64,000 nucleotides of DNA, taken from Halobacteriales archaeon QS_4_70_19. Its GTDB lineage: Archaea > Halobacteriota > Halobacteria > Halobacteriales > Haloarculaceae. The notes under the pieces are model-generated. The model was not told the DNA's origin and ran no database searches. It worked only from the letters and a program-made list of their open reading frames with translations. Positions 26,743 to 49,975 of this stretch are shown here, in pieces. The translations under genes were made by a program, and so were the position numbers. The stretch lies in the NCBI GenBank assembly GCA_003020985.1, contig PXRM01000014.1, positions 1 through 64,000 of the forward strand, written 5' to 3'. Positions within the stretch are counted from its first letter, which is position 1, and every line of letters starts with the position of its first letter.

Positions 26743-26828
26743 CTCATACGGATTACGCTACCTGTTTCCCACGACGACCGCCCGAGTGCGGAGTCGATGT
26801 GGAAATGACGTAGCGTAATCCGTATCAG
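26743..26828. mobile_element. MITE-like inverted-repeat element, copy 1
   Basis: The 86-bp element begins CTCATACGGATTACGCTAC and ends with its near-perfect inverse (GTAGCGTAATCCGTATCAG). The inner 16 bp of the terminal repeats match exactly. The interior is about 90% identical to copy 2 at 45050-45137. No coding capacity and no clear target duplication are present. Its right end lies on the stop codon of the acyl-CoA dehydrogenase gene: the TGA at 26825-26827 is part of the repeat. Confidence 0.8.
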
Positions 26829-27952
26829 TCGAGCAGCTCCCGCGCGATGATCGTCCGCTGGATCTCGCTGGTCCCCTCGTAGATGGTGGTGATCTTCGCG
26901 TCGCGGTAGAGCCGCTCGACCGGGAAGTCGGTGGTGTAGCCGTAGCCGCCGTGGATCTGGACGGCCTCGTTGGTCACGTCCATCGCCGTCTCGCTGGCCT
27001 TCAGCTTCGCGATGGAGGCGGCCTCGGCCGGCGGCGCGCCGTCGTCCAGCTCCCGGGCGGCGTCGTAGGTGAGCAGGCGTGCGGCCCGGGTATCGGCGTG
27101 CATGTCCGCGAGCCTGTGCCGGATGGTCTGGAACTCGCTGATGGGCCGGTCGAACTGCTCGCGGTCGGTGGCGTACTCCTCGGCGAGGTCGAGCGCCGAC
27201 TGCGCGAGCCCGACGGACTGGGCGGCGATGCCGACGCGGCCGCCGGTCAGGATCCGGAGCGCGGCCGACAGCCCGCGCCCCTCCTCGATGAGCCGGTTCT
27301 CGACGGGGATGCGTGCGCCGTCGAACGTGAGCGAGGTGGTGTCGCTGGCGCGCAGGCCGAGCTTCTCCTCCTTCTTGCCGACGCTGAGCCCCGCCGTCTC
27401 CTTCGGGACGAGGAACTGCGTGACGCTCCCGGGGTCGTCCGGGTCCGTCTTCGCGAACAGGATGACCACGCCCGAGCGCTCGCCGTTCGTGATCCACTGC
27501 TTGTCGCCGTCGATGACGTACTCGTCGCCCTCGCGGCGCGCGACGGTGGACATCTCCGCGGGGTTCGATCCCGCGTGGGGCTCCGAGAGGGCGAACGCGC
27601 CGACGGGGTAGCCGTCCCGCATCTCGGGCAGCCAGCGCTCCTGCTGGGGCTCCGAGCCGAACGTCGCGATACAGGAGGTGGCGAGGCAGTGGACCGAGAG
27701 GGCGGTCGCCACGGACAGCATCCCGTAGGCGACCTCCTCGTTGACGAGGGCGTAGGTCAGCCCGTCGGCGTCGTAGCCGCCGTACTTCTCGGGGACGGTG
27801 AGGCTCGTCAGGTCGAGTTCGGCGAGTCCCTCCCACACCGCCTCGGGGAACGTCTCCTCCTCGTCGGCCTCGCGGGCGACCGGGCGGATCTCCTCCAGGG
27901 CGAACTCCCGGACGGTGTCGCGGACGGCCGCCCGTTCCGGCGTCAGGTCCAT
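26825..27952 (-). CDS. Acyl-CoA dehydrogenase
   Basis: A complete 375-residue acyl-CoA dehydrogenase. Conserved parts in order are [55 protein letters not shown] (FAD/acyl-CoA site), [37 protein letters not shown]-equivalent [39 protein letters not shown], and [18 protein letters not shown]. The catalytic Glu position is in YEGTSE. The start at 27952 drops a Cys/Arg-rich stretch that is not coding. Its stop codon is supplied by the MITE-like repeat. Confidence 0.95.
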
Positions 27953-28025
27953 ACCCGTCCGTTCGGCCGCCACGGCAAAAGTCCCGCGCTGCCGGCCGAC
28001 CCCGTCGTCCGCGAGTGGCGGGCGG

Positions 28026-45049: not shown

Positions 45050-45137
45050 CTCATACGGATTACGCTAACTGTTTACCACGACGACTGCCTGAGTGCGGAC
45101 GGTCGATGTGGAAATGACGTAGCGTAATCCGTATCAG
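45050..45137. mobile_element. MITE-like inverted-repeat element, copy 2
   Basis: The 88-bp element has ends CTCATACGGATTACGCTAA and GTAGCGTAATCCGTATCAG, with 15-bp matching inner repeats. It differs from copy 1 (26743-26828) by a few substitutions and a 2-bp insertion. As in copy 1, its right end coincides with the stop codon of a leftward gene: the TGA at 45134-45136 of the DtxR gene is made by the repeat. Confidence 0.8.
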
Positions 45138-45814
45138 GCCTCGAGTTCGTCGGCCTCGGCGGCGGGGACGACCTCGATGAGTCGGGCGATCTCCTCGGGG
45201 AGGCTCTGCTCCCCGCCGGGTATCTCGGCGGTCACCATGCCGAAGGGCGCGACGTCGACCACCTCGAGTTCGACCCCCGGGCGGATGCCGGCGTCGGCGA
45301 GGTAGCGGAGCTCCTCGTCGCCCTGGTGGCGGATGCGTCTGACGACGACGGGCTCGCCCTCCGCGACCGTTGCGAGCCGGATGGTGTCGCCGGGCTCGGG
45401 GAGCGAGAGATCCGCGTCCGGGATGGGGTCGCCGTGGGGGTCGACCCCGGGGTTCCCGAGCGCCTCCGCGATGCGGTCGGTCAGCTCGTCGGAGACGTGG
45501 TGTTCGAGCCGGTCGGCCTCGTCGTGGACGTCCGCCCAGTCGTAGTCGAGCCGCTCGGTGAGAAACGCCTCCAGAAGCCGGTGGTGGCGGAGAATCTCCA
45601 GGGCCACCAGCTCCCCCTCCTCGGTGAGCGTGACCCCCTTGTACTCCTCGCGATCGACGAGACCCCGCTCCTCCAGCTTCTTCAGCATGGAGGAGACGGT
45701 CGGCGCGGTCACGTCGAGGTAGTCCGCGAGCGCCGACGTGGAGACGCGCTCCTGGCCGTCGCTCCGGATGGCGTAGATGGCCTTGATGTAGTCCTCCATG
45801 ACGGCGCTCAGCAT
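45134..45814 (-). CDS. DtxR/SirR-family metal-dependent repressor
   Basis: A 226-residue regulator. The N-terminal winged helix is MEDYIKAIYAIRSDGQERVSTSALADYLDVTAPTVSSMLKKLEERGLVDREEYKGVTLTEEGE. The dimerisation/metal-binding domain is ILRHHRLLEAFLTERLDYDWADVHDEADRLEHHVSDELTDRI, with the usual His/Glu/Asp ligands. The C-terminal FeoA/SH3-like domain is LATVAEGEPVVVRRI..., VELEVVDVAPFGMVTAEI. The start at 45814 is preferred to an ATG ten codons upstream. It probably controls iron or manganese genes; the ZIP transporter relic next door may have been a target. Confidence 0.92.
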   Translation of the reverse strand: MLSAVMEDYIKAIYAIRSDGQERVSTSALADYLDVTAPTVSSMLKKLEERGLVDREEYKGVTLTEEGELVALEILRHHRLLEAFLTERLDYDWADVHDEADRLEHHVSDELTDRIAEALGNPGVDPHGDPIPDADLSLPEPGDTIRLATVAEGEPVVVRRIRHQGDEELRYLADAGIRPGVELEVVDVAPFGMVTAEIPGGEQSLPEEIARLIEVVPAAEADELEA

Positions 45815-49228: not shown

Positions 49229-49975
49229 CTACCCGCAGGGGACGAGAACGCAGGCCAGCAGTTCGATGGTCTCGCCCGCGGTCGCGACCGGTCGGTCCCG
49301 GACAGGCCCGTTGACCTCCAGCCGCAGCAAGTGATCGGCTAACCGCCAGACGTTGTAGAGCAGGCAGCTAAAGACGAAGGTGAACGCCCGAACCCGATAG
49401 TCGGCCGAGGCCGTCGTCGGAAGGAACTGCTTGCTCTGCTTGTACTCGTTCTCGATAGTCCATCGTCGGCTGTAGCGGTCGTACAGTCCTCGCACGTCCG
49501 CTGGCGCAACATCGTCCCGGTCTGACAGGAAGACGGCGTACTCACCCTCGTCGCTCGTAGAGGGGACGTACAGGAAGTTCACCTCGTGGCACCGCCCGTC
49601 GACTCGTAGTTCTACGTCGGGCTCGACGGCCACATCCGAAGTCGGATGGTCTTCGACCTTAGCGACGCCCTCCAAATCAGCCCGGTACGTGCGCGTGGGG
49701 ATGAGGTACTCCAAGCCGTGCTGGTCAATCGTGTCCAGCACGGCGTGGGCGTCGAAGCCGCGGTCGGCCAGCACCAGATGCAGGTCAACGTGCTTCTGTG
49801 CCTCGATAAGCAGGCGGTCAACGACCTCGGCCTTCGGCGTTCGGGTCGCATCGTCGCTCTCCCATTTCGAGTTGGCTTTCACCGGCTCGACAGCGAGAAT
49901 GATCGGCGCAGCTTCGCCAACGATGGTGAGCATGGCGAACTCATAGCCGCGTTTCTCTATAGTTGGTTTATTATA
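49229..49975 (-). pseudogene. IS4-type transposase, 5'-truncated
   Basis: The open frame covers the C-terminal about 248 residues of a DDE transposase: EKRGYEFAMLTIVGEAAPII, VDLHLVLADRGFDAHAVLD (second catalytic Asp), and YSRRWTIENEYKQSKQF, which fits the IS4 'YREK' signature (Tyr-2-Arg-3-Glu-6-Lys). The N-terminal part with the first Asp is missing: the frame closes at a TAA (49976-49978), where an AT-rich membrane-protein gene begins. The first in-frame ATG (49933) lies within the conserved domain, so the product would be inactive. It marks the left edge of the accessory island. Confidence 0.85.

Follow-up and report, generated by a model that had tools for sequence, protein, structure and literature searches.

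Short palindromic elements at TGA stop codons of haloarchaea: a probable MITE family

Introduction

Insertion sequences of the IS5 family, IS1031 group, generate 3-bp TNA target duplications; their terminal inverted repeats (TIRs) differ from those of the elements described below. The bacterial RUP, Correia/NEMIS and YPAL elements are shorter than 200 bp, have TIRs and target duplications and are presumed to move in trans, according to the accessible part of the source (PMC2229807), all of which applies to the present family as well. For haloarchaea, the accessible part of another report describes the elements SMR-A and SMR-B of Haloquadratum walsbyi, which cause no target duplication; SMR-A occurs in PATEs and IS605-type elements and SMR-B in other mobile elements (PMC3119063). 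Our literature search, with most subscription papers outside its reach, yielded no account of haloarchaeal elements located at stop codons. Here, we analyze a window, i.e. a stretch of 64,000 nt, from the genome of Halobacteriales archaeon QS_4_70_19 (assembly size 2.84 Mb, 82% complete) that contains two short palindromic elements (26743-26828 and 45050-45137), each of which ends at the stop codon of a gene.

The two elements very probably belong to a haloarchaeal family of non-autonomous palindromic miniature inverted-repeat transposable elements (MITEs) with a TNA target within CTGAG. Their place at gene ends would result from target sequence and selection, while part of the bias may be due to targeting or benefit.

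Results

Structure of the element and target-site duplication

An initial annotation made from the letters of the window had pointed at a pair of MITE-like elements, and both are found where they had been placed, with a mutual identity of 93% (BLAST). On the plus strand, either copy reads C-TCA-TACGGATTACGCTA ... TAGCGTAATCCGTA-TCA-G, equivalent to C-TGA-element-TGA-G when read along the leftward gene. In copy 1, the element proper comprises 78 bp (26747..26824) between target-site duplications (TSDs), with a left TIR TACGGATTACGCTA (26747..26760, plus strand) and a right TIR (26811..26824, minus strand). The distal TGA (26744..26746, minus strand) is one TSD, empty sites being known from other copies, and the other is the stop codon TGA (26825..26827, minus strand) of a Pfam-supported acyl-CoA dehydrogenase gene (26825..27973, minus strand, the start codon being the choice of the scorer of open reading frames (ORFs)). 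Copy 2 is 80 bp long (45054..45133), has its TIRs at 45054..45067 (left, plus strand) and 45120..45133 (right, minus strand) and is flanked by a distal TGA (45051..45053, minus strand) and by the TGA stop codon (45134..45136, minus strand) of a Pfam-supported iron-dependent regulator of the DtxR type with a FeoA domain (45134..45814, minus strand). The TIRs, originally given as exact over 15-16 bp, are indeed perfect but 14 bp long (TACGGATTACGCTA); the extra bases belong to the flanking CTNA target. Similarly, the leftward gene's TGA lies at the right end of both window copies as had been stated, but it is not a part of the repeat: neither TGA nor "CTGATACGG" is a fixed end of the element, the triplet rather being a 3-bp TSD, and that the same end appeared to lie on the stop is explained by the TNA target.

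The genome assembly as a whole yielded 31 full-length copies of 86-88 bp including target bases and one 34-bp fragment (BLAST with copy 1, alignment). Matches to the terminal 15-mer with up to two mismatches amount to 32 in forward and 33 in reverse orientation versus 0 and 0 for a reversed-pattern control, so that the repeat pair in the window is not a chance occurrence. Most of the 31 copies carry an exact 15-mer at either end, and 23 of the 31 have the exact form C-TGA-TACGGATTACGCTA...TAGCGTAATCCGTA-TGA-G (CTGA...TGAG). A C precedes the stop-side TGA in 29/31 copies and the far-end TGA is kept in 26/31, which thus have TGA on both sides; the stop-side TGA is present in 31/31, the copies having been oriented by it. 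This is a 3-bp TSD, slightly more decayed at the far end. When the copies are sorted by their TGA end, the asymmetric core occurs in both orientations (16:15), ruling out that one particular end of the element encodes the stop; the two window copies share one orientation. The core thus varies in its orientation to the gene, while the TGA, repeated directly on either side of the element, is constant. With many dispersed, short and non-coding copies, TIRs, a TSD and empty sites in congeners, the family fits the structural definition of a MITE, save for a proven partner. The earlier designation as MITE-like is therefore kept, and we class the elements as a MITE family that occupies an unusual niche, the stop codon.

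Coincidence with stop codons and empty sites in congeners

Gene calls and background counts were obtained with a phase-specific Markov gene finder trained on QS_4_70_19 loci. A gene ends exactly at the element's TGA in 24/31 copies or 24 of the 30 evaluable ones, L011 being located at a contig edge and left out (L0xx, L1xx and L2xx denote analyzed stretches). Pfam adds L016 and L018, the latter encoding a 46-residue protein with a weak match (4.6e-4, below the curated cut-off), and raises the count to 26/30. In three further cases (L027, L028 and L035), inspection by eye suggests an upstream frameshift, after which the final frame terminates at the TGA. They bring the number to 29/30; these apparent frameshifts represent assembly errors or pseudogenes. 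All QS_4_70_19 counts above 24 rest on such rescues (two by Pfam, three by eye), which were applied to this genome only. By eye, the frameshifted genes encode a trypsin-like protease (L027), an acidic-tailed small protein (L028) and a MetX-like acetyltransferase (L035). The Pfam match for L035 (alpha/beta hydrolase fold) covers the upstream part only and the last-frame pieces were searched without a match. In L021, a small ORF (by eye) stops 19 nt before the element, and the duplication is degenerate. Considering ORFs with a start codon, the TGA is the stop in 28 copies, and 24 of the 27 stop-ORFs scanned (a 16-codon ORF at L027 was left out) gave a Pfam match at E<=0.001, the exceptions being L010, L012 and L035. 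The host genes are diverse and encode acyl-CoA dehydrogenases, the DtxR regulator, a metallo-beta-lactamase fold protein, an AMP-binding enzyme, a rhodopsin, a photolyase and TFB; no transposase is among the Pfam families named for the stop-ORFs. With 26-29 of 30 evaluable copies on stop codons, the family in QS_4_70_19 is not placed at random relative to genes. A preference for gene 3' ends had been surmised from the two window copies and holds for 26 copies (29 with frame reading) of 30; targeting and selection both fit this observation.

In three congeners (genomes G001-G003), no family member was found. Their DtxR genes end directly with CTGAG and without an element (3/3). Fourteen further genes were queried, ten of which gave a locus in all three congeners, while four yielded no usable one: L034 had congener matches without loci and L026, L030 and L017 had no clear orthologous row. 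Comparison of the last 12 residues places the stop of all 30 congener genes at the corresponding residue; in L039, the stretch preceding the compared end varies. The 30 ends feature TGA in 28, CTGA in 25 and CTGAG in 14 cases, and an element was found at none of them. Because these ends represent empty sites, the element is shown, as far as sequence comparison goes, to have entered at pre-existing stop codons and to have left protein ends unchanged save for one possible exception, the copy 1 acyl-CoA dehydrogenase addressed in the Discussion. Of the two window genes, the DtxR regulator agrees with the initial statement that the proteins end at normal lengths.

Target sequence and expected frequency

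The target flanks, (A/C)C-TGA-G, are alike in stop and non-stop copies. With a profile from 35 non-stop copies of other genomes, target weights were assigned to every TGA in 294 kb of QS_4_70_19 sequence. Stop codons account for 13% of all target weight, for 20% of the non-coding weight and for 79% of the weight in stops plus the first 50 nt of the 3' untranslated region (UTR). The respective shares for the loci of other genomes are 8%, 13% and 54%. Compared with an expectation of 20%, stop copies are vastly overrepresented in QS_4_70_19 (P~5e-15 for 26/30, P~8e-20 for 29/30), whereas with 79% expected, P is 0.007 for 29/30, 0.20 for 26/30 and 0.53 for 24/30. In the other genomes, 43/78 copies (55%) are at stops, far above 13% and equal to 54%. 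A like-for-like comparison using the gene finder only (24/30 in QS_4_70_19 and 43/78 elsewhere) gives P=0.026. Hence, target sequence combined with strong purifying selection could be sufficient and active targeting would not be needed, although it may contribute.

Neighboring genes and RNA structure

For the 29 stop copies (those identified by eye included), the downstream gene is arranged in tandem in 16 and convergently in 13 cases, compared with 83:69 for background TGA genes. None of the 16 tandem copies has the next gene less than 20 nt away, the nearest being at 53 nt, versus 26/83 in the background (P=0.010); the copies thus appear to be located where transcription units end. That operon junctions are avoided can be reconciled with terminator or polarity effects as well as with plain selection.

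The RNA of copy 2 is predicted to fold with -40.7 kcal/mol (z -7.6 versus shuffles), and a strong fold is expected of any palindrome, a MITE included. Archaeal intrinsic terminators have a U-rich motif. The longest T run in the 31 copies is 3, the flanking DNA being outside the scoring; with no longer run, the sequence of the copies does not support a terminator function. The proposal of a mobile terminator is disfavored by this and by convergent versus tandem neighbors that match the background. The initial annotation had also considered the element as a candidate small-RNA source. For the copy 1 region, Rfam returned a best match of 18.1 bits against a gathering threshold of 83 and, hence, no identity for the element.

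Occurrence in other genomes

Within the taxonomic family of QS_4_70_19, a covariance model (R1) built from 34 copies, 24 from QS_4_70_19 and ten from relatives, detects the elements in 68 of 116 genomes, QS_4_70_19 included, and in 19 of 22 genera. TIR types vary (TACGGATTACGCTA, TAGTGATTAYTGTA, TACGGATTGCTGTA and others) while the core is kept, a pattern that can be due to co-evolution of TIRs and transposase, to structural constraint or to both. Eighty loci were hand-picked, not randomly drawn, from the best rows of a score-sorted list and two without usable TGA orientation were dropped; among the remaining 78, 43 lie at stops, 33 elsewhere, one inside a called gene and one has a gene running in. 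With up to one mismatch, TIR matches in genome G030 number 84 in forward and 70 in reverse orientation, and its copies show a mean divergence of 1.4% and are located at stops in 11 of 20 cases. A scan of named genomes for exact TAGTGATTAYTGTA-type TIRs identified 47 stretches in Haloarcula, Halapricum, a Haloarculaceae isolate and other Halobacteriales genomes; Halapricum hydrolyticum and Haloarcula mannanilytica are among the carriers. The 47 stretches held 48 elements, of which three with odd duplications and six already sampled were set aside; of the 39 left and new to the sample, 19 reside at called stops. The 19 usable copies from QH_10_67_22 do not duplicate the 20 sampled from G030, as the exact-TIR pattern is absent from all of the latter. 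The family extends well beyond the window pair from which it was first proposed, and about half of the copies sampled elsewhere are at stops. None of the named genomes scanned yielded an element with the TIR type of QS_4_70_19 (TACGGATTACGCTA) in exact form at its two ends, a scan that may omit QS_4_70_19. Two matches in viral contigs are read as chance.

An insertion common to G004 and G062, which belong to the same genus (L042 and L132, the elements differing at two positions), is a vertically inherited copy. In L012 and L102, from two genera (G000 and G030), the downstream genes are homologous (78% identity over 656 bp), and this is either an independent or an ancient insertion at one locus.

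Arrays, nested elements and transposase candidates

In some cases, for instance L096 and L099, a copy is followed directly by another palindromic element of a different kind, a single TGA separating the two (next to position 2001-2088). At the G134 locus (L066:431-656, identical to L159:931-1156), two other elements are arranged back to back and share a TCA. Array elements have TIRs such as TACGGTCGTGCGTA, TACTGTCGGACGTA and TACTGGTGGCTGTA, complete ones measure about 113-115 bp with target bases, and the neighbors in L099 and L098 are shortened. Because the arrays share single TGA/TCA triplets, several dissimilar mini-element families use the same TGA/TCA target. We tentatively entertain the idea, without favoring it, that the dissimilar palindromic mini-elements of these haloarchaea form one class for which TGA is the duplicated target and stop codons are self-healing safe sites, with targeting being perhaps partly active. 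If this is true, insertion leaves TGA on both sides and a further element can dock alongside. G026 contains a copy of the stop-codon family that encloses a second palindromic element (L208:4410-4577), and a 40-bp minimal derivative of the family is present in L212:1498-1543.

A 1.5-kb candidate for an autonomous element in G006 (L187) was rejected. By eye, a different palindromic element is interrupted here by a transposase gene, which has ends of its own and a 10-bp duplication. This insertion spans L187:1005-2501, and a complete copy of the host palindrome with TTA on both sides is located nearby. For larger, weakly matching proteins, ten loci were scanned for ends, and the best candidates listed lack TACGG-type TIRs; six are of the ISH3/IS4-like type. 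PF13737 gave no match and its control was likewise without a match. The window itself contains a partial gene for an ISH3-type transposase (49229-49933, minus strand; NCBIfam NF033541, profile positions 129-296 of 298, below the curated cut-off).

Discussion

The sequences show that the target of the element, which is 78-80 bp long and has 14-bp TIRs, is a 3-bp TNA, nearly always the TGA in (A/C)CTGAG, and that insertion duplicates it. Where this TGA is the stop codon of a gene, C-TGA-element-TGA-G arises, the stop being regenerated and the protein remaining unchanged; insertion takes place in either orientation. Cutting would be catalyzed by a DDE transposase with a 3-bp stagger that is presumably provided in trans by an autonomous element. 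The motif (A/C)CTGAG is probably common at stops of these GC-rich genes, for which Asp-TGA-G is frequent, and this would concentrate insertions at stops, while selection would eliminate those that hit coding sequences, promoters or operon junctions. Part of the bias may be due to active targeting or to a benefit for the host. We infer that the family is mobile at present.

It is conceivable, yet on balance unlikely, that the transposition machinery is actively drawn to gene 3' ends by a host factor, by the transcription or replication state or by a structured 3' end. Such targeting would readily explain why stops hold 26-29 of 30 copies in QS_4_70_19 (24/30 finder-only) instead of 13-20% and 43/78 instead of 13% elsewhere, and why perfect-TIR copies (19/39) and the recent burst in G030 (11/20) show about half of the copies at stops. 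However, if just stops and the first 50 nt of the 3' UTR are tolerated, 79% and 54% are to be expected; 43/78 then is as expected, 29/30 is mildly high and 26/30 is not, although many copies in other genomes lie outside the stop and first-50-nt 3' UTR classes. Non-stop copies have the same target motif. Even less probable is a cassette useful to the host, in which the hairpin following the stop serves as a mobile terminator or mRNA stabilizer and is kept at the ends of transcription units. The very stable hairpin of copy 2, the conservation of core and pairing across genera, the avoidance of operon junctions and the insertion common to two species of one genus (G004 and G062) would be in accordance with such a role. 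On the other hand, the element contains neither a T run exceeding 3 nor the U-rich archaeal terminator motif, the convergent:tandem ratio (13:16) resembles the background (69:83), 0/30 congener ends carry the element and a MITE would be palindromic in any case. Finally, a non-mobile conserved 3'-UTR element or chance repeats would agree with the location at gene ends but can practically be dismissed in view of the TSD, the two orientations, the unrelated host genes and the empty sites in all three congeners, which also contradict a conserved 3' UTR sequence without mobility.

Several observations weigh against a mobile family positioned by target sequence and selection. Target sequence with equal tolerance of all non-coding sites predicts just 20% (QS_4_70_19) and 13% (elsewhere) of copies at stops, so that selection must be strong or another factor must exist. 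Age is not supported as a driver of the stop bias, nor is the prediction of selection acting over time, because stop copies are not significantly older in any of seven genomes with both classes (small samples; the 'stop' class there includes two copies that lack a clear TGA). Overall distances to the neighboring genes do not differ significantly from the background (tandem P=0.15, convergent P=0.08). The sole departure among 12 genes is the acyl-CoA dehydrogenase at copy 1, which lacks two residues compared with its congener counterparts; these have no element there. Compensatory changes in 13/25 pairs and a core conserved over different TIR types amount to more structure than a plain MITE needs. 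Lastly, no insertion sequence or other autonomous partner with these TIRs was found, the search covering some transposase families and an assembly of QS_4_70_19 that is 82% complete: there is none among PF01609 matches (11 genomes), PF13586 gave no match in 20 genomes, and 12 stretches with unpaired TIRs in G026 contain just mini-elements, the nested element and the 40-bp derivative.

An element with a TSD that equals the stop codon can spread cheaply through a compact, gene-dense genome, insertion at gene ends being silent at the protein level. In this family, insertion preference and selection can be told apart in a natural setting. With similar hairpins right after the stops of over two dozen unrelated genes, a single genome also offers a test set for the biology of archaeal mRNA 3' ends.

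Comparison with known systems

IS5 family elements of the IS1031 group are alike in TNA duplication, while their PF13586 domain is unmatched in the 20 genomes searched. As far as the accessible part of the report allows comparison (PMC3119063), SMR-A and SMR-B resemble the present family in being haloarchaeal, about 80-110 bp long, equipped with TIRs unrelated to known transposons, inserted in a targeted manner (some families) and mobilized in an unexplained way, yet the present family duplicates TGA and sits at host-gene stops in 26/30 cases, and so departs from the SMRs in two features. Many RUP, Correia/NEMIS and YPAL elements have TA at both ends, as does TACGG...CCGTA here, but RUP targets contain TA while the empty sites of our family (CTGAG) do not, and in the accessible part of the source the target duplication is not described as a gene's stop codon (PMC2229807). 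Mycobacterial MIRUs are likewise small mobile repeats at gene-boundary codons that do little harm to the host gene; according to the accessible part of their description, they couple an internal ORF to the adjoining gene start (PMC12548453), whereas 0/16 tandem copies adjoin a start here. The closest structural likeness is that to MITEs, which are short, non-coding and multi-copy and have TIRs and a TSD. The term 'stop codon' is absent from the review text on MITEs and a partner was not found for our family, which differs in that the TSD is the stop codon itself in most QS_4_70_19 copies.
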